IMG/VR virus record: IMGVR_UViG_3300009418_001801
Coordinates: 1 to 23,954 of that record
Length of the DNA: 23,954 bases
Direction: 5' to 3' (one strand)
From: a virus
Made by a program: the position numbers and the translations under genes. Below are positions 1 through 15,701 of the stretch, in pieces. Within the stretch, counting starts at the first letter, position 1. Each line of letters opens with the position of its first letter. Under the pieces are notes generated by a model. It searched no databases, was not told where the DNA came from, and worked only from the letters and a program-made list of their open reading frames with translations.

Positions 1-450
1 CTCTATAATATGGAAGGACACAACTCTGGTAGACAGATACGTTATCTTAATAGGAAACCAAAATATAGATTGATTCCTATAATAAGAAACAAAGAAAAGC
101 AGTACCCTACATACTCTAGGTGTTTACCAGATGAAGAGTTTAGTAGTGGAGGCTACATAGTAGAAAGTGTCTATGATGCTATGAGACTATGGCAAGCCAC
201 TAGTATTCCAAGCATAGCTATACTTGGAACTAACATGAGGACTGACTTGCTTATGAAGTTGGCTATTATATCTAAGCAGTATGACACCCAATGGTGTGTA
301 CTCTTTGACCCAGATGCACATGTTATAGCCAGATTAATAGGGACTAAGATGAGAACTTATGGATTAAAAACTATAGAAATACTACCAGAATTCAAGCCAT
401 ATGAGTATAGTGATGATGATTTGCTATCCTTAGTAGAGGAGGTATTCTAA
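1..450 (+). CDS. DNA primase, C-terminal TOPRIM part (5' end cut by window edge)
   Basis: This would make RNA primers for phage DNA replication. The reading frame is open to base 1, so the ATG at 10 is probably internal and the zinc-finger and most of the polymerase core lie outside the window. Numbering from that ATG, the GR..R.L...PKY stretch (residues 7-19) matches the DnaG-type lead-in to the TOPRIM fold. The TOPRIM signature follows: Glu52 in VESVYDA, then the IAILGTN strand (69-75), then the metal-binding D100-P-D102 in the CVLFDPDA segment. The protein ends about 45 residues after the DxD motif, so no helicase domain is fused at the C-terminus. It is followed directly by the 83-aa gene and then DNA polymerase, which supports a replication role. 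Confidence is high for TOPRIM and moderate for primase rather than another TOPRIM enzyme. Confidence 0.8.
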   Translation, partial: LYNMEGHNSGRQIRYLNRKPKYRLIPIIRNKEKQYPTYSRCLPDEEFSSGGYIVESVYDAMRLWQATSIPSIAILGTNMRTDLLMKLAIISKQYDTQWCVLFDPDAHVIARLIGTKMRTYGLKTIEILPEFKPYEYSDDDLLSLVEEVF

Positions 451-701
451 TGGGACACTTTAAAGACAAACAAATTATACTGGAGGAAGATATGACAAGC
501 TATATTAAAGATGTAAAGAATGATATCATGAATTTAATATGCAAAGGATGTGATAAATTTAAGGATGCAAATTACACCTTAGCAGTTGAATCACAAGTAG
601 AAGAAATACTACAAAGGAGGTTAGACCAACTATTTAAATTATTGTTAGAGGAGAAAGACAATGATAACAAAAACGTACACACAAAGAAAGAAGAAGTATA
701 A
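450..701 (+). CDS. Small hydrophilic protein of unknown function between primase and polymerase
   Basis: I do not recognise this 83-aa protein. It is charged and predicted mostly helical, with Lys/Glu-rich ends and a C-x2-C pair (CKGC, residues 31-34) that is too isolated to call a zinc site. Its ATG overlaps the primase stop (TAATG), with an AGAGGAGG-type site at about 435-442, so translational coupling is likely. A second in-frame ATG at 492 has its own GGAGG at 482-486, 5 nt upstream, and could give a 69-aa product; I cannot decide between the two. The last 41 nt overlap the polymerase gene in another frame. Its position suggests a replication accessory role, but that is inference only. 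Confidence 0.7.
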   Translation: MGHFKDKQIILEEDMTSYIKDVKNDIMNLICKGCDKFKDANYTLAVESQVEEILQRRLDQLFKLLLEEKDNDNKNVHTKKEEV

Positions 702-2835
702 ACCCCAAGCATTAGATGATACATGTTTAAGGTGTGGGTTATTTGAACATGCATCTTCCCCTAAATTATCCAGAGTTAAGATACAGGATGGAGCAACAGG
801 TAAAGTCCTAGTAGTATTAGGACATCCGTCTCAAGCTGAGGATATCAAAGGTAAGATAGGAGGAGATGTAACTGGAAGTACAGTAAAGAAATATACTAAG
901 CAGTATCTTAAAGACTGTGAAGTATGGATTACTAATCCAGTTAAATGTCATCCAAAAGATTATACTATTAAGACACATGAAGTAAGATGGTGTTCTTCCA
1001 ATCTACGAACAGACATAGAAGACTTGAAACCAGATAAGGTTATAGCTATGGGAGAACTAGCTAGGATGGGGTGTAAGGAGATTGACCAAGCATATGAATC
1101 TTGTGTCCATCCATTGCAACTTAAAGATAAATCATCTGACCGAACCATCATAGAAAGTTATAGCAGAGTAGGGGCTGAGCTAAGGAATGAACTGTACCCT
1201 ATCCCACTATCTACTGACCTAGAAGAAGTCTTACATCTGGCTAAGCTAGAAGGATTCTTAGGGCTAGACTTTGAGTGGAACATAGATACTGATGCAACTC
1301 ATACTGTAGGATTTAGTTCAAGCTCTAGTTGTATAGCACTAGAGATAGATGTAACTGTGCGTAAGAAACTACAAGAGTTAGTACAAGATAAAGACCTTAC
1401 TATAGTGGGACACAACATAGTTGTAGATGTAATAAGACTTATAAGATTATGTCCTGCTATCCCCATCAAGTGTAAGTTTATGGATACCTTAATACTTAAG
1501 AGACAGCTAGCCTCTCATCTACCTGTTGGTGGGCTGAAGTTCTTTGCACATAACTATCTACATCTTGTAGATTATGCTAAGGATATAACCATAGATGATT
1601 TTGCTAAGAGTACTCAGAAGTTAAGGGACTACTGTGCAGGGGATGCATATGCGGGTATAGAACTTATGAAAATGTTTATGCAAGATTACTCTCATTACTG
1701 GGACATCATGAAACCTGCTAGACAGATAGATATGGAGATGATACTACCAGTAGCTCATATGATTAATGATGGTATTAAGGTGGATAAGTCTAAGCTACAA
1801 TCCTATGCTAAAGATAACGAATTATTACTAGATGATATACAAGCTAAGATAAATGAAGAACATAACATTAACCCTTCCTCCCCCATGCAGGTACTAGATA
1901 CCTTTAAAGATTTAGGTATAGACATTGAGAGTACAGGGGAGACAATACTTAAAGGAGTAGACCATCAGTTTGCTAAGGATATCCTAATATTTAGGAAGCA
2001 CTCTAAGTTACACACCACATATACCAATAAGATACCAGAGTTAATAGATACTCAAGGTAGGCTAAGATGTAATCTACAACTTGCCTCTACTGTTACAGGT
2101 AGAATGACCTCAACTAAACCTAACATGCAGAACATGCCACCCTCTGTTAGACCATGTTTTAAATCTATCTTTGAAGAAGAAGGAACTATGCTAACTGTGG
2201 ATGCAAGTCAATCAGAGTTAAGATGTTTGGCTTACCTAAGTAAGAGTAAGTATCTAATTCAATCATACAAAGATGGAGTGGACATGCATACTCTTGTTGC
2301 TAACCTTGCCTCAGTAGATAGGAAGTCAGCAAAGATATTAAACTTTGCTTATGTATATGGGGCTACTGATTTTAGATTAGCTAGTGAGTTGGTTAAAGCA
2401 GGAGTAAAGAAGACTAAGGCTAAGAGTGTAGTTGCTAAGTATCTGCAAGTCATGTCTCAGCTAGGTATAGCTAAGTACCAAGACAAGCTATTGACTTCTG
2501 CTAAGAAGATGGGTTATACTTGTAGTGTGTATGGGAGGATAGGAGATAGACTCAACCCTACTCAGGTTGTGAACTTTCCAATTCAAAGTTTTAGTGCTGA
2601 TTTGAATAAGATTAGAATTATTCAGATGTATAAATTACTGAGAGAAAAAAATATGATGTCTAGGATATGGATGGAGTTTCATGATGCTATGGAATTAGAT
2701 GTGTATACTCCAGAGTTACCAGATGTACTTAAACTAATCAAGAGAATTGATACTAAGATTCCAGATGTACTTAACTATGGAATAGATTTAGATTTACCTC
2801 TTGATATAAAGAACACAGGAAGTAATTGGCAGTAA
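661..2835 (+). CDS. Family A DNA polymerase with N-terminal Fe-S uracil-DNA-glycosylase-like domain
   Basis: This is the replicative phage polymerase, 724 aa. Residues 20-170 resemble family 4/5 uracil-DNA glycosylases. The cysteines fall as C22-x2-C25-x70-C96-x14-C111, the spacing of their 4Fe-4S ligands, with GHPSQAED (54-61) at the first active-site loop and TNPVKCHP (91-98) at the second strand. The DEDDy 3'-5' exonuclease follows: D203/E205, N252/D256, Y324/D328. The polymerase domain has TGRMTS..PNMQNMP (479-493), motif A D514-A-S-Q-S-E519, motif B R554...K558...F562..Y566-G and motif C H674-D675-A676. There is no 5'-3' exonuclease domain. The position equivalent to E. coli F762 is Phe. 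Two oddities are the loss of Glu after the motif C Asp (HDA, not HDE) and the missing acidic/Gly residues of the glycosylase loop. The start is supported by AGAGGAG at 647-653. Family A assignment is certain; the UDG-like domain is very likely, its activity doubtful. Confidence 0.95.
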   Translation: MITKTYTQRKKKYKPQALDDTCLRCGLFEHASSPKLSRVKIQDGATGKVLVVLGHPSQAEDIKGKIGGDVTGSTVKKYTKQYLKDCEVWITNPVKCHPKDYTIKTHEVRWCSSNLRTDIEDLKPDKVIAMGELARMGCKEIDQAYESCVHPLQLKDKSSDRTIIESYSRVGAELRNELYPIPLSTDLEEVLHLAKLEGFLGLDFEWNIDTDATHTVGFSSSSSCIALEIDVTVRKKLQELVQDKDLTIVGHNIVVDVIRLIRLCPAIPIKCKFMDTLILKRQLASHLPVGGLKFFAHNYLHLVDYAKDITIDDFAKSTQKLRDYCAGDAYAGIELMKMFMQDYSHYWDIMKPARQIDMEMILPVAHMINDGIKVDKSKLQSYAKDNELLLDDIQAKINEEHNINPSSPMQVLDTFKDLGIDIESTGETILKGVDHQFAKDILIFRKHSKLHTTYTNKIPELIDTQGRLRCNLQLASTVTGRMTSTKPNMQNMPPSVRPCFKSIFEEEGTMLTVDASQSELRCLAYLSKSKYLIQSYKDGVDMHTLVANLASVDRKSAKILNFAYVYGATDFRLASELVKAGVKKTKAKSVVAKYLQVMSQLGIAKYQDKLLTSAKKMGYTCSVYGRIGDRLNPTQVVNFPIQSFSADLNKIRIIQMYKLLREKNMMSRIWMEFHDAMELDVYTPELPDVLKLIKRIDTKIPDVLNYGIDLDLPLDIKNTGSNWQ

Positions 2836-3221: not shown

Positions 3222-4049
3222 ATGCCTACATATAAAGACCCTATAAAGAATTCTATATATGACCCAGAGTCTTTTCTTGAAGGAATTGAAGAGTCATGTA
3301 GTGCTGAGATTACAGAGTACATGAATCAAAGAACAGAAGAGTGGAAGGCTAGAGGTAAGAACAAAGCTATACGTTCATCCTCACTAGGCACATGTATAAG
3401 ACAGAGTTACTATGGTTATTATTCTAAAAGGGAATCAATCCCTATAACAGATGAGGTAGCTAGAAGAAGAATGTACATGGGTTTTGTTAACGAAGAAACC
3501 CAAGCAAAGATACTAGGTAGAATGCCTGGACACCTACATGGTGTAGAATCTATTGAACAGAATCAATTCCCTGTTCACTTAAACATTACAGAAGATGTAA
3601 CCTATACTGCTACTACAGATTTTGTGCATGAGTATGAATACAAAGATAATAAATACTACATTCCTATGGAACTTAAGAGTACTGAGCTATGGAAGTGGAA
3701 AGAGTTTAAGTACCATCCATACCATCTAAAGCAGATACTCTTATGGATGTACTATGCTAAAGAAAAGTTACATCTTAACGTACCCTATGGGGTACTGATG
3801 TACACCAAGAGAAGTAGTATGGAAAATAAATACGTAGTCATCTCTTGTGATACACGATTTGAAAAGATGAGTAGAGAAGTACAGAAGTATGACTATTGGA
3901 AACCATGGTTGGATAACCATGTGAATACTATTACCAGTTCTATACTCCAAGAGACTGTACCTCCTAGACCTACAGATGTACCTCAGTATATATGTAGTGG
4001 ATGTACGTACTTAGATTTATGTAATAGGAATGCTAATCACAATGAGTAA
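3222..4049 (+). CDS. Cas4/RecB-like PD-(D/E)XK nuclease with four-cysteine Fe-S cluster
   Basis: Probably a DNA exonuclease for replication, recombination or host DNA breakdown. The 275-aa protein has the layout of Cas4 and the AddB-type nuclease domain. The first cysteine is C58 (SSLGTCIRQ); GFVNEE (87-92) sits where the family has its first acidic/His motif. Asp133 in TTDF, then E150-L-K152, form the metal-binding core, followed by the helix H168-x2-Q171...Y177. Three C-terminal cysteines, C258-x2-C261-x5-C267, complete the cluster. All catalytic positions are present, so it should be active. AAAGGAG lies 5 nt before the ATG. Its end overlaps the next gene's start, and the next gene is a second nuclease of the same superfamily. 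Cas4-like phage nucleases are known outside CRISPR loci, and no CRISPR is visible here. Confidence 0.88.
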   Translation: MPTYKDPIKNSIYDPESFLEGIEESCSAEITEYMNQRTEEWKARGKNKAIRSSSLGTCIRQSYYGYYSKRESIPITDEVARRRMYMGFVNEETQAKILGRMPGHLHGVESIEQNQFPVHLNITEDVTYTATTDFVHEYEYKDNKYYIPMELKSTELWKWKEFKYHPYHLKQILLWMYYAKEKLHLNVPYGVLMYTKRSSMENKYVVISCDTRFEKMSREVQKYDYWKPWLDNHVNTITSSILQETVPPRPTDVPQYICSGCTYLDLCNRNANHNE

Positions 4050-8249: not shown

Positions 8250-11200
8250 CTATTTAAATTTGTCTCTGTAAGCCTCAACATTTCTTTCTAGTTCTTTGTT
8301 AATATTTGTACCAGGGAAGTTTCTTCTATCTGCCTCAGTCTTATCTCTAGTATCTCTATATCTTTTCATTGTAGATTTCTTATCTAATCCAGCTGACTCT
8401 ATTATTTCATAAGCTTCTTCTAGGTCTCCAGCATCTAGTGCTCTGAATATACTGAACTCGGCTCTCTTCCTACTATAAGATGTGTGTTTAGACTGAGCAT
8501 CTAGTGAGTATTTCATAATTCTATTCCTAGATTCATTAGGAGTTTCAAACCCTAACATCTTAAGTAAGCCTCCACCTAGTGCACTCTGTCCCATCTCATC
8601 ATAGTTAAAGACTAAGCTACCTCCGTAACTACTCATAAGTTTTCCTGTTTGAGTTATGTTGTATCCTTGTCTTATATTCTGTGCAAATCGTGGAAGAAGA
8701 TAGTTCATACCTCTGTCTATATCTCCTTTAAAGAAAGATGTACTTGCTTTGTATAATCTAGTTGGATATATACCAAACAAGTTATCAGTATCTATCAGAC
8801 TAAAGATATTACCTGGTCCCATTCTACCTTCCATAGATACTCCTAGTCCCATAGGTATACCACCAGATAAGATATCCATAAATGGATTATCTTTCTCCAT
8901 CATCTGAGCCTTAGGCGAATACCCAAACACTGTTCTAGTTAGTAGGTCTAGTTCGTTTGAGCCTGGCATACTGAACACACCACCTAGTGCAATGAATGCT
9001 CCAGATATTTTAGCAAAGTCTTCATACTGTTCAGCTAAAGTTACTCCTCTACCCTTAGGTCTTTGTGCAAAAGATTTGTACACAAACATAGTTTCTTTTT
9101 GTACCCATGTTTTAAACTGTAGGATAGGAGCAAGTGCCGGGTTATTAAACTGGAATGGTACGTTACTCTTGTCATACGTAAAGTTAGTTTCTCTTACAAA
9201 TGCTTTAGCAAATTCATCTTTAACATTAGCATCAGTTAATGGTTTACCTAGTCTTCTAGACTGGTGGAATAAAGTTCTTTCTCCCGGTTGTAGTACATCA
9301 TCTATCAGAGCAATATCAGATTTCTCTAAGCTTAATCCTGCTCTGTCTACTTTCTTTATAATTCTTTTACTTAAATTTTCTGCCATGTCATGAGATGCAA
9401 TGTAAGATAAAACTCTAGCATATTTATCCATCCCGTTGAATGCTATCATAGACATGTCTTTAAGTTTCCTAGCCTGTTCTCTTAAATTAAGACCTGTAAT
9501 ACTTTTAGTTCTACCTAGTTTAAGAGAGTCTCTTAGTATGTCATCTACTCTACCATCCATCACATTTAAATGTAAATTTAAATCTCTGAGTCCTTGACCA
9601 TACTTAGCAAACGCTGCCGTCCCTTCTTTCATTGCAGGTCTAGCTTGTCTAACTGCTTTAATAAATGGTTTAAATCCTAGCCTAGGTATCACGTTCATAC
9701 CCAAAATACTAAGCTGTAATAGGGAAGTAGCAAAGTTAAATCCTAAAGAGGTAAATGAACCTACAGAAGTAATAGCTCCAGTTATTGCTCTAAGACTATC
9801 ACTACCTTGTTTGATACCTAGCTTAGTAAAAGCTTCTGCTACTACTGGAATTTTCTGAGCTATATTTATACCACTATTTACTATGTCATTTATTTGTTCT
9901 TCTAGTTTAAAAATTCTTCTGTCTAACAGGATGTCTCCATAGTCTTTAAAGTACTTAGCTCCGGCTGTATCTCCTCGTTCATTTAAGAACTTAATAGCAT
10001 TCTCTATATCTGTCCCCATCTCTCCCATCTCTGCATACTTGTATGACCCGTATGCATATCTATCCATAGAGTCTTCAAATTTAAATCCTTCTGTATATAT
10101 CTTTTTATTACGTACCTTAGTAGCATTAAACATTACATCTACTAGGTGTTGCTTACCTATAACTTTACCATCTGCTTTTGCAGCTCTTATCTGAGCTACT
10201 GTCATGTCTGCAGTTTCAAGTAAAGCATCTGTAAACTCAGCAGGTGCAAAGGCATCTAACGTAGGATGTGCAGGTGTTATCATTATCTTGTCCTGCTCTC
10301 CAAAAGAAGCCAAGTTCTTTTCTATGTAGGCTTGTGCAGCTTCTTTGTTAGCTACGTTAGCTACCAATTTATTCTTTACAAATACATCTATAGCTCCGTC
10401 TGCTACCATTGGAGTATATCCAGGTAGATAACTTATTAGTTTCTGTACTGGTACTCCATCTGCTACTCTTCTTAAATTAGTTTTAACAATTGTTTTGTTA
10501 TTATGTATACGTATTTTATTATAAGTTCTATAGTTAGCACTTAATAATTCTGCTACATCAGGAGTAGCTTTAGCTAATTTAAGTTTTACTAATTCTTCTA
10601 AGTTAGCTATATCTCCTGCTGTTAGGTCTTTACCTATCTTTTGTTTTTCTCTTAGCACCATATCTGTTATGTCATCTTGTAATCTAAAAGCAGGACTTTC
10701 TACCTGACCAATGTATTTAGTTCCATGTTTTTCTTTTAACCTTCTGGATACCATAGCAAAACTATCTGACTCAGCATTTATCTTAGCATAAGACCCGTCT
10801 ACATCTACAGATTTAGGATGTAACATAGCTTTAACTTTGTTAACCTGGTCAGAGATACTATGAGCTATCCTAAGAAAGACAGGATTGTTGTAACGTCTAG
10901 CCATTTCTAATGCAGAGTCTACTGGGTCTTTCAAGAAACCATCTGCTATTGTATTCCTTGTACCTGTAGCATCCGTAATTTTTGGACCACCTGTGCCATC
11001 AGTACCTTGGTTACCTCCAGGCGGCACACCTCCCCCATCAGATGGGTCTGCTAGTCCTTTAGTCTCTTGTTTTACTTTAACTGCACTGTCTTCTACTACA
11101 TCAACAGTTGGTTTACTCATCTGAGGGTTCTCTATAGTACTAAGTATTTTCTTTAACCTTAGTCCACTTAATGGTCCCTCTAATTGTATCAAGCTATGTA

Positions 11201-14200
11201 AGTATTTCTTAGCTCCTTTGTCTCCGTACGCACCTCTTATTGCATAGTATAGTTTAGTTTCAACAGCAAAGCCTTTGTTAAGACTAGCTGCTATTCTATT
11301 AAAATCATCTGGATTAGCCATAAGGTGTGCCATAAACTGACGTTCTAATTTGTTTTGTATTGCTTTGTCTCCAGCTGCTACTGCATCATTCCAACTTTGC
11401 TTAAATGGTACTATAGCAAAGTTTTCTATCCAGTCTGTCATGTCGGATTTAATACCTTGGTATAAAGTAGTTTCTATTAAGGGTAAGTTCTCTTTAATAA
11501 ATGCTTCATCTAAGTTATTAAAATTAATTTGATTAAGAGTAACACTGTCTTCACTGTTTAGTTTTTTCAGAATCTTTTGAAGATTCTCTGTTAACTCTGT
11601 GTCCATATCTTCGCCATACTGGTCTGTCTTGTAGTCTTTTTCTCCATACTTTTTACTTTTATCTTTCTTAAGCCTACCTTTTCTTAGTGAACCGGCTTCA
11701 TATGCATTCTTCTTAGCCTGGTTTCTTATTCCGGCAAAGAACTGTTCCTGTTTAATTGGTAGAGATATATTCTCTATCTTGGCTGCAGCCTCTCCCATGG
11801 TTAATAGCTCTTCCATATTAGAACGGCTTAGATTAAAGTGGTCTTCCACTTCTTTACTATTCTTCATAATACGTTCTAACACTTCAACTATCTCATCTGT
11901 TAGTTCTCTTTCTCTTGCAATCTCGTTTCCATTAACATCATCAAAACTTTTGTATGAGTTTTCCATAGCTTTCATCTTGTTCTTTAATCTTCTGTACATA
12001 CCTTTACCAGGTTTAATACCGTACATGTTAGCTAGTCCTGCCTCTTTAATAATTTCAGTTAACTCATTTAACTCAATAGTTTGTTGCTTTGTCATAGGAG
12101 CATCTTCTAAACTGTCCTTACTTATACCCCTTAGTCTTCGTTTTAACATAGTCTCTGATATGTAATTACCATCCAGACTACCATGTGTTTGACCAGATAG
12201 TTCATTATCTATAGTCTGCTTTATGGCGGTTACAAGTTGTTTACTTCTAGGTTTAGCCTTTAGTTTTTCTGCTGGAGGTAAAGCATCATACTCTTTAACA
12301 CTTACAGTATCATCCAGTACACTCTTTATTCCACTTTCAATAGATTCCAATTGTTCTACTTCATTAACCTCAATACGTTTTAAGTTCTCATTGTTCTTGG
12401 ATATAACTACATCATCACTTTCTTGCCCTATTAGTTTCTTAACTGTCTTAGTATTCAGTGGTCTTTCTTTGTGTACTCTAGCCATGTTAGTCTTATGTCC
12501 TTTGACATAAGCAGTCAGGTTATCCGCTCCTTTCTTAAATGGGATAACAGCAAATCTAGGTAGGTAAGGTACTCCTTCCCTCATTGCTTTAGGAATCTCC
12601 ATTACCATTAAGTTACTGTTTACCATAAATCCATCAGGACCTACCAATATACCCTTGCCTCCATAGTTAGCATTTATTTTATCTATAGCAAGTTCAAGAG
12701 ACATTGCATCATCTTCATCTAATAATCTTTGTATTCTTTCCAGATGCCCTCTCTTTGTTTTAGTTATTGTTTCTCCAATCTCTACTCCACCAGCTTTATA
12801 CAATCGTTCACTATAGCTCTGCCCATCAGTACCTTTTGCAAATTCATTAGCTTCAACTACTACATCCCCTGCTTCTTCTAGCTCTTTAGGATTAGATTGT
12901 ACTGCTTCTTTACGGGTAGTCTTACTTGTATACTCTAAATGTTTCCCAGCATCATCTTGTAAATTTTTCATGCTCTGTAACTTGCCTGCATACCAAGAAT
13001 CATATGGAGTTTTTGTTATTCTTTCCTTCTTCTTCTTGCCGGGTGCTGCTGCATATTTAGGTAGCCTTCTACTACCATTTATATAACCATCTATAACAGT
13101 CATAACTTGATACTCTCTGTTAATAGCCACGTTATTTAATTCTATAGCTGTGTCTACAATTTTCTTAGCATCTTCAGCTGGTACGTTTGCTTTAATACTT
13201 TTGTATAACAAAGAATCAACTTCTTTACCAGTTGGCATACGTTTAAATTTACCAAGGTTATGGTATCCATGTATCCTACCAGATTGTGTTAAGAATTTAT
13301 CAAAGTGATTGATATTATCAAATACTTGCCTAGCTCTGTTAAACCTAGTCATATAATTTACATACAGAGAATCTGTTAACTCATCAATAACATCTTCTTG
13401 TAGGTTAGCCTGTTGTATCTTAGCATCTATACCACCCGGTTGTTTGCCAGGTTTGACCTTAGCTACTATTGGGTCAGGTAAACCCCCCGGAGGTAGCTTC
13501 TTAATCTTAGATTTATCAACAGAAGCCCTAAGTTCTTCTAGTTCATCCCGTAGGTCTGCTTGTTTTTGTGGCTTTTTTCTTTTTATTATTTCTTTAATTG
13601 CATCTTTCTTGGTAAGCTTTGCATACTTTTTAGCATCACTTAGTTTGAATACATTCTCTTCACCAAACTGTCCAGATAATATATTCTCTTCAATTACTTT
13701 AGCTATACTTCTATCAGTTGTTTTACCAGTAAGACTGTTGGCTATATAGGTATCAAAGTTAACTGCTGATTTCCCGGATAACCCTACTTGAACAGAAATC
13801 ATTTTTGCAACATTACGGTTGGTTACCCCTTGAAAGTACTTAGTATCTTTAACTATGTCTATTCTACTGTCGGATACTCGTTTGTTTGGTTTAACTTTGT
13901 ATTTCTTAGGAGCTCTGACACTCTTAAGTTCTGCTTCTCTAGCTTTAATAGCTTTCTTTCTTTTGTTACTTATCTTGTAGGTAACAGGTTCATTAATCTT
14001 TCTTGGGTCTAACTCAGTAGGTAATTCTTCTCCAGCTTTACTAGCCTTAGCCAATGCTTGTTGTAATTTCTTAAGGTCGTTGTCACTGTATTTTAATACT
14101 TTCTTTTTTGTATCAATTGCTTTTGTTCGCTTAGCAGCGAACACTTGTCCACCATACTTCTGGTAGATAGGGTCATCAGCTCTTCCTCTTGCCAACTTAC

Positions 14201-15701
14201 CTAGCTCGTTACCGTCCAGAGCTAACATCTCTTTTAAATCTAAATCAGTTCTCTTTTGTATATTAGCAACCATCTTAGGAGTAATGCCTTTCTTATCAAA
14301 TGCATTAATATAACCTTGAGCTTCTCCTGCAGATACCCCAGTACCCTCTATGAATTCTTTGGCTCCTTTCTTACCCAGTTTTTTGTTTAACTTTTGTAAT
14401 CCTTTCTTGTCTGACTCAGCTATAACTATAGCAGCTTCTTCCGGAGCTTCTTTCTGTAATACTTTCTTACTAGGTTTCTCTGTTTTTACTTTAGTTTCTA
14501 TTTGTTCTTTTAAAGCGGTGTTATTATCTAGTACATCATTAATAGCTGCGTTTTCTATATCACTAATAGTTTCCCCAGCTTGTTTTTCTTTGAACAATAT
14601 ATCTAACTCGTCATTAGTTGCAAAGATTTGTTCTCCATCTTTAGACAGTATTACTCCATCATCTGTTTTAATAGGAGGTTGATACACCTCATCTCCACTA
14701 GACTTAATGTTAGAACGGTACATAGATTTCACGTTAGCTTCTTTTCTAAATGCAATCGCATCTAGTTCTGCCACTTTTTCTCTAAGCTTACCTATATCAT
14801 CTAGTACTTCTTCTCCTGCTTGTACAGGACTTTTGCCCTTAAAATAATCTATTTTATTATCAGCAAATTTACCTTGTATGTTAGCTACATTACTAGCTCT
14901 AGTGTGGTCACGTTGTACATTTACGTGGTCTATTTGTTGGTCAGCTTCTAGTCTTCCTCGTATAGTTCCTTCCACGTCATCTATTTCTGCTTTAAGTTTT
15001 TCCGTTGTTGTAGCTTCTCTTTCATCTAGTCTTGTTTTACGTTTCTTTAATGATTTGTGATTACGTACTACTCGTTGGATACCAGCAAAAGCACCTTCTC
15101 CTATTGCTGTGTAGAGTAAAGCGTCTTTTAATCCTTCAGCTCCTTCTAAGTGTTTATCTGTAGCTGCCCATAGTCCAGCTTCCATAGCTACCCTACTACC
15201 AAATTCAAATTGTTTACTTGCTATGGCTTGTTCAAGAGTAGAACCCAGTCTATAAGCACCTGGTACCTTGGCTGTGGCATTAGCCACGCCAGGAATTTCA
15301 CTAATAACTTCTCCTGCTCTTTTGGTTACGTTGCTTAGTCCTACTTGGAATCTAGGGGCAACAGCAAATGCTAACCTATTATAACTAGCTAAGGGAATAA
15401 AGGTTCCTAATAAATAGGATAGACCTTCTGTAGATAACATACTATCAGGAGATTGTCCTGCATGATGCAGAGTTAAACCATGAGTAAATGCACCAGCTAA
15501 ATCTGATTCAATCTCTACCTCAGGAGCTGTAGAAAACTTAGTAGCCTGACTGGCTAACAAGTGGTCCAGTGGGTCTACGTCAACTAGTGTGCTTACATAC
15601 TCTCTGGGATTTATGTCAAAGCTAGCCTCAACTTCTATCTGGTCTTCTTCAACATCTTCCGGTGTTACATATCCTGGTGTTGTAAATTTATCTTCTGCCA
15701 T
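8250..15701 (-). CDS. Giant internal virion (DNA ejection) protein, T7 gp16 position
   Basis: This 2483-aa protein is probably packed in the capsid and ejected with the DNA to build the channel across the cell envelope. Its place after the 425- and 764-aa proteins matches T7 gp16, though it is nearly twice as long. Residues 1-60 include SQATKFS (51-57), shared with the upstream protein. About 200-1540 is highly charged and Lys/Glu-rich, with Pro/Gly breaks near 735-750. A Gly-rich linker lies near 1545-1580. The last 900 residues include a hydrophobic stretch near 1975-2005 (VGSFTSLGFNFATSLLQLSI). A conserved-looking C-terminal region (about 2180-2350, with ETNFTYDKSN and PILQFKTW) resembles the end domains of large polyvalent phage proteins. 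I see no convincing lytic transglycosylase motif. GGGAG sits 8 nt before the ATG. Confidence 0.85.
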   Translation of the reverse strand: MAEDKFTTPGYVTPEDVEEDQIEVEASFDINPREYVSTLVDVDPLDHLLASQATKFSTAPEVEIESDLAGAFTHGLTLHHAGQSPDSMLSTEGLSYLLGTFIPLASYNRLAFAVAPRFQVGLSNVTKRAGEVISEIPGVANATAKVPGAYRLGSTLEQAIASKQFEFGSRVAMEAGLWAATDKHLEGAEGLKDALLYTAIGEGAFAGIQRVVRNHKSLKKRKTRLDEREATTTEKLKAEIDDVEGTIRGRLEADQQIDHVNVQRDHTRASNVANIQGKFADNKIDYFKGKSPVQAGEEVLDDIGKLREKVAELDAIAFRKEANVKSMYRSNIKSSGDEVYQPPIKTDDGVILSKDGEQIFATNDELDILFKEKQAGETISDIENAAINDVLDNNTALKEQIETKVKTEKPSKKVLQKEAPEEAAIVIAESDKKGLQKLNKKLGKKGAKEFIEGTGVSAGEAQGYINAFDKKGITPKMVANIQKRTDLDLKEMLALDGNELGKLARGRADDPIYQKYGGQVFAAKRTKAIDTKKKVLKYSDNDLKKLQQALAKASKAGEELPTELDPRKINEPVTYKISNKRKKAIKAREAELKSVRAPKKYKVKPNKRVSDSRIDIVKDTKYFQGVTNRNVAKMISVQVGLSGKSAVNFDTYIANSLTGKTTDRSIAKVIEENILSGQFGEENVFKLSDAKKYAKLTKKDAIKEIIKRKKPQKQADLRDELEELRASVDKSKIKKLPPGGLPDPIVAKVKPGKQPGGIDAKIQQANLQEDVIDELTDSLYVNYMTRFNRARQVFDNINHFDKFLTQSGRIHGYHNLGKFKRMPTGKEVDSLLYKSIKANVPAEDAKKIVDTAIELNNVAINREYQVMTVIDGYINGSRRLPKYAAAPGKKKKERITKTPYDSWYAGKLQSMKNLQDDAGKHLEYTSKTTRKEAVQSNPKELEEAGDVVVEANEFAKGTDGQSYSERLYKAGGVEIGETITKTKRGHLERIQRLLDEDDAMSLELAIDKINANYGGKGILVGPDGFMVNSNLMVMEIPKAMREGVPYLPRFAVIPFKKGADNLTAYVKGHKTNMARVHKERPLNTKTVKKLIGQESDDVVISKNNENLKRIEVNEVEQLESIESGIKSVLDDTVSVKEYDALPPAEKLKAKPRSKQLVTAIKQTIDNELSGQTHGSLDGNYISETMLKRRLRGISKDSLEDAPMTKQQTIELNELTEIIKEAGLANMYGIKPGKGMYRRLKNKMKAMENSYKSFDDVNGNEIARERELTDEIVEVLERIMKNSKEVEDHFNLSRSNMEELLTMGEAAAKIENISLPIKQEQFFAGIRNQAKKNAYEAGSLRKGRLKKDKSKKYGEKDYKTDQYGEDMDTELTENLQKILKKLNSEDSVTLNQINFNNLDEAFIKENLPLIETTLYQGIKSDMTDWIENFAIVPFKQSWNDAVAAGDKAIQNKLERQFMAHLMANPDDFNRIAASLNKGFAVETKLYYAIRGAYGDKGAKKYLHSLIQLEGPLSGLRLKKILSTIENPQMSKPTVDVVEDSAVKVKQETKGLADPSDGGGVPPGGNQGTDGTGGPKITDATGTRNTIADGFLKDPVDSALEMARRYNNPVFLRIAHSISDQVNKVKAMLHPKSVDVDGSYAKINAESDSFAMVSRRLKEKHGTKYIGQVESPAFRLQDDITDMVLREKQKIGKDLTAGDIANLEELVKLKLAKATPDVAELLSANYRTYNKIRIHNNKTIVKTNLRRVADGVPVQKLISYLPGYTPMVADGAIDVFVKNKLVANVANKEAAQAYIEKNLASFGEQDKIMITPAHPTLDAFAPAEFTDALLETADMTVAQIRAAKADGKVIGKQHLVDVMFNATKVRNKKIYTEGFKFEDSMDRYAYGSYKYAEMGEMGTDIENAIKFLNERGDTAGAKYFKDYGDILLDRRIFKLEEQINDIVNSGINIAQKIPVVAEAFTKLGIKQGSDSLRAITGAITSVGSFTSLGFNFATSLLQLSILGMNVIPRLGFKPFIKAVRQARPAMKEGTAAFAKYGQGLRDLNLHLNVMDGRVDDILRDSLKLGRTKSITGLNLREQARKLKDMSMIAFNGMDKYARVLSYIASHDMAENLSKRIIKKVDRAGLSLEKSDIALIDDVLQPGERTLFHQSRRLGKPLTDANVKDEFAKAFVRETNFTYDKSNVPFQFNNPALAPILQFKTWVQKETMFVYKSFAQRPKGRGVTLAEQYEDFAKISGAFIALGGVFSMPGSNELDLLTRTVFGYSPKAQMMEKDNPFMDILSGGIPMGLGVSMEGRMGPGNIFSLIDTDNLFGIYPTRLYKASTSFFKGDIDRGMNYLLPRFAQNIRQGYNITQTGKLMSSYGGSLVFNYDEMGQSALGGGLLKMLGFETPNESRNRIMKYSLDAQSKHTSYSRKRAEFSIFRALDAGDLEEAYEIIESAGLDKKSTMKRYRDTRDKTEADRRNFPGTNINKELERNVEAYRDKFK

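Follow-up and report, generated by a model that had tools for sequence, protein, structure and literature searches.

Uracil-DNA glycosylase (UDG) domains carried by phage polymerases have so far been taken for repair modules; for gp205 of phage PaBG, in which an N-terminal UDG domain has been described, accurate replication was suggested by the authors (PMC7412058). What, then, is the role of such a domain when its active site is altered? The question is raised by a 23,954-nt stretch of viral DNA (IMG/VR record IMGVR_UViG_3300009418_001801, hereafter the window), in which a family A DNA polymerase (PolA) begins with a UDG-like domain. The original prediction for this locus held that an Fe-S cluster is kept while the key active-site residues are gone, and that the domain could read template uracil or another modified base without cutting it, or could be purely structural.

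The polymerase gene (661-2835, plus strand; Table 1) opens with an ATG and its translation is a family A polymerase of 724 aa, in which Pfam recognises PF00476 (2.1e-54, residues 379-723) and PF01612 (2.4e-5, residues 226-340), and which is matched by the profile phrog_17 (6.8e-73) over residues 38-716. The motifs LDFEWN, VGHN, YCAGD, DASQSE and HDA are located at residues 202, 249, 324, 514 and 674, respectively. PolA is placed in a replication block together with a DnaB-like helicase, a DNA-binding protein, a primase and nucleases. Directly 3' of the polymerase, a Cas4/RecB-like PD-(D/E)XK nuclease (3222-4049) carries a C-terminal C-x2-C-x5-C (ICSGCTYLDLC) and an upstream Cys, and may be a second Fe-S protein of the replication block. 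The reverse-strand structural block of the window contains an ORF of 2483 aa (8250-15701, minus strand), which has a counterpart of 2680 aa (L132:1385-9427) and is probably a large internal virion protein. For host assignment, a search of genome contigs returned only matches at the level of PolA (26-28%).

Table 1. Features of the polymerase locus; positions are nucleotides of the window and residues are those of the polymerase.
Feature	Position	Strand	Basis or remark
Small ORF, 83 aa, upstream; overlaps the polymerase start	450..701	+	ORF list; counterpart ahead of the L001 polymerase
AGGAG, ribosome-binding-like	649..653	+	sequence; 7 nt ahead of the polymerase ATG
Family A DNA polymerase, 724 aa: UDG-like N-domain, DnaQ-like 3'-5' exonuclease and PolA	661..2835	+	profile matches, motifs
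UDG-like domain, residues 1-179 (core 22-179)	661..1197	+	AlphaFold2, VIA-align, Pfam UDG on the domain alone
Cys pair C22-x2-C25 (putative Fe-S ligands 1 and 2)	724..735	+	sequence; present in groups A and B, stretch deleted from group C
Altered motif A loop GHPSQAED, residues 54-61 (family 4: GE[AG]PGxxED)	820..843	+	sequence, alignment
TNPVKC, residues 91-96: N92 (= N80 of Tth UDGa, uracil-binding) and C96 (putative Fe-S ligand 3)	931..948	+	alignment
C111 (putative Fe-S ligand 4)	991..993	+	alignment
H150-P151, motif B (HP of HPS; = catalytic H155 of Tth UDGa)	1108..1113	+	alignment; after predicted strand 146-148
3'-5' exonuclease domain, approximate	1258..1695	+	PF01612; exo motifs at residues 202, 249, 324
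PolA polymerase domain	1795..2829	+	PF00476, residues 379-723

The four cysteines of the N-terminal domain, C22, C25, C96 and C111, have exactly the predicted spacing C-x2-C-x70-C-x14-C, which in other four-Cys UDG-PolA fusions spans x64-x79 and x11-x19 (mostly x66-x70 and x14-x15). They align with the 4Fe-4S ligands of family 4 UDGs, and by this alignment they would be expected to cluster in space and to hold an Fe-S cluster in the window domain. When the domain was scanned alone, the Pfam UDG family (PF03167) scored 24.9 bits, above its gathering score of 24.3 bits; the genome search gave 24.6 bits and the scan of the full protein 21.0 bits, below the cut-off. The NCBIfam models of type-4 UDGs match at 8e-11 and 4e-8, both far under their cut-offs, and TIGR00758, at 33.1 bits, does not reach its curated cut-off of 125.3 bits. 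The best sequence matches in the PDB are those to TM0511 (1l9g/1vk2, E 0.002), and a profile of the clade finds 4zbx at 9e-9. The AlphaFold2 model (residues 1-196, 41 homologues; pLDDT 92.2, pTM 0.86) retrieves with Foldseek 37 top PDB matches that are all UDGs, nearly all of them of family 4 or UdgX, and is superposed by VIA-align on 4zby with Z 17.1 and rmsd 2.7 over 154 aligned residues (model residues 22-179), on 1ui0 with Z 16.0 and on the phiLo PolA (9qhs) with Z 13.1; furthermore, its structural matches in BFVD are phage UDGs and phage DNA polymerases. The domain is thus predicted to have the alpha/beta/alpha fold of a family-4-type UDG, as the original prediction required, and a chance occurrence of the cysteines is ruled out by the fold, by the profile matches and by their conservation in groups A and B of the clade described below. 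Fold, cysteine set and the sequence LGHPS in place of motif A together bear out the prediction of a family-4-type Fe-S UDG domain with a broken motif A, fused to PolA.

Whether this domain can still excise bases depends on its pocket. In Tth UDGa, contributions to activity have been measured for E41, G42, E47, F54, N80, N89 and H155; E41Q loses ~900-fold, F54A 17-fold, N80A >40-fold and N89A ~7-fold, and the loss of H155 is the costliest (PMC5387724). In a mapping anchored on the invariant Pro (P56 = P43), the window copy has E41 changed to G54, G42 to H55, G44 to S57, F54 to G67 and N89 to Y101 (aligned position), with LGHPS at residues 53-57 where GE(A/G)PG is expected, and retains E47, D48, the uracil-binding N80 and the catalytic H155 as E60, D61, N92 and H150. 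H150-P151 is followed by LQLK in place of a complete HPS, and the motif is incompletely conserved in groups B and C; in the AlphaFold2 model it stands between strand 146-148 and helix 157-174, and since a strand precedes HP in UDGs as well, HP is taken as motif B and the alternative alignment, which put part of the next helix where the His belongs, is ruled out. By alignment, therefore, the window copy lacks motif A, the stacking Phe and the water-positioning Asn but still has the base-contact Asn and the His. Base excision has probably been lost, though H150, N92 and E60 could leave residual activity. The claim that the key residues are missing holds for the equivalents of E41, G42, G44, F54 and N89 and fails for E60, D61, N92 and H150.

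With the family 4 UDGs of known structure (Tth UDGa, 1ui0; S. tokodaii, 4zby; T. maritima TM0511, 1vk2) the window domain shares the fold over residues 22-179 (Z 16-17), the four-Cys spacing, the TNxVKC and HP motifs and the Pfam UDG match, but it differs from them in the replaced GEAPG, the lost equivalents of F54 and N89, a shortened hairpin ahead of the HP strand and the fusion to exo-PolA. UdgX, some PDB entries of which are named 'Phage SPO1 DNA polymerase-related protein', is also a structural neighbour (Z about 16); a suicide cross-linker of the UdgX kind is ruled out, as both GEQPG and the KRRIH R-loop are absent from window residues 1-200, and H107, in KTHE, is conserved in group A only.

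Relatives found by scans of IMG/VR belong with the window to a clade of polymerases of 686-725 aa, which is a separate branch of the PolA tree (SH-aLRT 100) and comprises three groups. The four cysteines are kept in group A (L011-L014; 62-70% identical), with G(T/H)P(S/T) in the loop, and in group B (L015-L021; 47%), with DTPSQLYD, and all four are lost in the syntenic group C (L001-L003; 45%). In group C the gene order is maintained (primase, small ORF, PolA, ~100 aa, Cas4-like nuclease, second PDDEXK), the polymerase starts downstream of the CxxC segment, with ~31 residues removed, and the third and fourth cysteines are replaced by Val/Thr and His. The retention of the cluster that had been proposed is thus consistent with the window phage and not with its syntenic relatives. 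PF03167 scores 33.0 bits on L015 of group B and has no match on L001 of group C, for which AlphaFold2 gives a model with pLDDT 72 (VIA-align Z 13.0 to UdgX, 131 aligned); we hold with moderate confidence that the Cys-less N-domain of group C still has the UDG fold.

The base pocket also varies, both within and between groups. The motif A loops of the relatives read GTPSQAED, GTPTRMSE, DTPSQLYD or DKPAKSYE; the positions equivalent to E41, G42, E47 and N80 of Tth UDGa are occupied by G/D, H/T/K, E/S/Y/H and N/C/S/H, respectively, so that E60 (replaced by S, Y or H) and N92 (by C, S or H) are unconserved, the latter being Cys or Ser already in relatives 62-70% identical. H150 is kept in group A, a His is found in groups B and C by alignment alone, and in a further group C copy the His is lost too (CGSWFDG). 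This copy lies on an 83.7-kb contig, G004, which carries two UDG-PolA genes, L014 of group A and L131 (G004:C1:63000-69000) of the Cys-less group C, each accompanied by a separate primase and nuclease; the contig may be a tandem, or may have arisen by the joining or co-assembly of two related phages.

The N-domain is nevertheless under purifying selection: in close pairs of the clade its dN/dS is 0.045-0.19, similar to the 0.03-0.14 of exo+pol, with several dS values saturated. In group C the values are 0.124 for the N-domain and 0.028 for exo+pol, a hint of relaxed selection after the loss of the cluster. Between groups the N-domain diverges faster, its identity in the L015-L001 pair being 30% against 64% for exo+pol. 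Across the clade the N-domain has a basic character (pI 7.5-9.5, net charge +1 to +8), and groups A and B have in addition a basic N-terminal tail, TYxxRKKKYK; intact UDG-PolA domains are basic too, however, so that the charge is unspecific.

A wider survey, by tblastn in annotated phages and a scan of IMG/VR, revealed that UDG-PolA fusions are common; among the IMG/VR ORFs taken forward, 41 are fusions, most of them with intact motifs and four cysteines, in a sample biased toward intact forms because the query was built from intact fusions. The suspicion that the fusion is not unique, founded on the SPO1 polymerase, was therefore correct, as SPO1 gp31 and many other phage UDG-PolA proteins were found. 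Motif A has decayed with the cysteines kept in PMBT14, Serbin, STP12, LysYB1, BSTP12 and EpZHS; both have decayed in SPO1, Exig132 and group C; the cysteines are lost with the motifs intact in MelJY34, L107, L114, L115 and L130. The internal ligands, C3 and C4, have been lost in four lineages (SPO1/Exig132, MelJY34 and its kin, L130 and group C of the window clade). On an unrooted PolA tree of 69 sequences, with the direction from intact to decayed assumed and Exig132 representing the SPO1 group (SPO1 gp31 being intron-split), the catalytic state changes at least 7 times and the Cys state at least 6 times, counts that are slightly high owing to two rows, KimJong and phiXF1, coded as 'partial' from late annotated starts. 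The starts of these two polymerases (L033:4061 and L037:4046) are apparently annotated too late, and neither is counted as a loss of cysteines, their upstream reading frames holding the CxxC. Judged from sequence, the active site has decayed and the cluster has been lost repeatedly and independently in other UDG-PolA lineages. In L032, L107, L114, L115 and L130 the cluster cysteines are absent and GEAPG, TN and HP are kept; these are possibly Fe-S-free family 4 glycosylases.

The arrangement of N-terminal UDG, 3'-5' exonuclease and PolA is common to the window, SPO1 gp31, PaBG gp205, the phiLo polymerase (9qhs), ctfzr933 and PMBT14/Serbin/STP12, and a decayed motif A to the window, PMBT14, Serbin, STP12, LysYB1 and SPO1; the window clade is set apart from the other fusions by the loop G(T/H)PSQAED and by a pattern of decay peculiar to it. 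UDG-like domains are also found at the C-terminus of DnaE in Pseudomonas phage hairong (L008:79-3462) and in the Rhizobium phages B1VFA and RHEph10 (L141:1597-4965 and L142:1552-4965); PF03167 matches at 1.7e-13, the equivalents of E, N and His are changed, and some or all of the cysteines are missing. These domains resemble that of the window in bearing decayed motifs and cysteines on a replicase, but the polymerase is of the C family and the terminus is the opposite one. The altered loop, originally singled out as the interesting part, is not peculiar to this phage, equivalent decay being found in several other UDG-PolA lineages and on DnaE. The UDG-PolA fusion itself was already known from PaBG gp205, phiLo 9qhs and SPO1; new are the pattern of decay and its spread, including the loss of cysteines between syntenic sisters, and a literature search from which subscription journals were largely excluded returned no paper on recurrent inactivation or on cluster loss between syntenic sisters.

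The constraint acts on the domain and not on the base pocket or the cluster, a pattern that is best explained if the domain serves the polymerase as a physical component. Starting from what was computed (fold, homology, residue changes, sequence constraint and repeated decay), we advance the hypothesis, to which we give an even chance, that the N-domain is an ex-glycosylase that now assists the polymerase without catalysis, most likely as a DNA grip or processivity module. An active Fe-S UDG of the family 4 type would have become fused to a phage replicative PolA, its glycosylase function would later have been lost, and the domain would have been retained as a built-in module that holds DNA without sequence specificity and keeps the polymerase on the template; the Fe-S cluster would be a structural staple of this module in the window, dispensed with by the sister phages. 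A DNA grip is the best guess because of the DNA-binding origin of the fold and the precedent of vaccinia virus D4, whose mode of action on the vaccinia polymerase would be reproduced here in cis. D4 is not a four-Cys Fe-S UDG. This UDG makes up one half of the processivity factor of the polymerase (PMC5682278; PMC10253040); its binding to undamaged DNA is almost as good as that to damaged DNA, and the dispensability of its catalysis is disputed (PMC10253040). The likeness that we propose lies in the UDG fold as a DNA-holding subunit of a polymerase; unlike the window domain, D4 is enzymatically active and forms a subunit of its own, which is bound via A20. More tentatively, on phage replicases of the A and C families UDGs may several times have become modules that hold DNA without catalysis; this would be a general phage route to built-in processivity or template grip, one that can do without the active site and even without the Fe-S cluster.

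Pocket decay, cluster loss, the low N-domain identity between L015 and L001 and the position of the gene within the replication block would also fit a role outside DNA chemistry, namely a purely structural or protein-interaction module that stabilises the exo/pol body or docks the helicase, the primase or an SSB-like protein and holds no DNA. We consider this unlikely, as the UDG fold originated as a DNA-binding surface and as polymerases of two unrelated families have acquired the domain, at opposite termini. The structural option of the original prediction fits the decay better than its other option, a sensor that binds template uracil or a modified base uncut and stalls or licenses the polymerase. 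To such a sensor we give a small chance: although the window copy still has N92, E60 and H150 at positions that belong to the uracil pocket in Tth UDGa, the pocket is unconserved in relatives as close as 62-70% (N92 being Cys or Ser) and in groups B and C, which speaks against a conserved reader of uracil or modified bases. The structure of the phiLo UDG-PolA, deposited as 9qhs with a 'modified template' (a literature search largely without subscription journals found no paper on it), might seem to favour a sensor, but GEAPG is intact in phiLo and the entry says nothing for the decayed form. Moreover, TS, Thy1 and dUTPase are absent from 12 clade records, possibly incomplete, which is weak evidence against a dU- or hmU-containing genome and led us to set this candidate aside.

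Excision coupled to synthesis, by a glycosylase still active with altered specificity or at a low rate, appears less probable still. In its favour, group A retains H150, and the motifs are fully intact in about 40 other UDG-PolA fusions; however, the equivalents of E41/G42/G44, F54 and N89 have all changed, the His of groups B and C is placed by alignment alone, the group C copy of G004 lacks it, and bare excision ahead of the polymerase would yield an abasic template.

The repeated decay, with continued selection, argues for another polymerase-related role in many phages, and the window clade offers a natural experiment, in which one syntenic polymerase has the cluster cysteines either kept (groups A and B) or lost (group C). 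If the domain is indeed a DNA grip, it would illustrate the passage of a repair enzyme to a replication part, a second case besides poxvirus D4. In many cultured phages with UDG-PolA, base-modification or thymidylate genes stand beside the polymerase (L005, L007, L028, L031, L033, L039, L041 and L042); they include dUMP hydroxymethylase or TS, dCMP deaminase and 7-deazaguanine genes.
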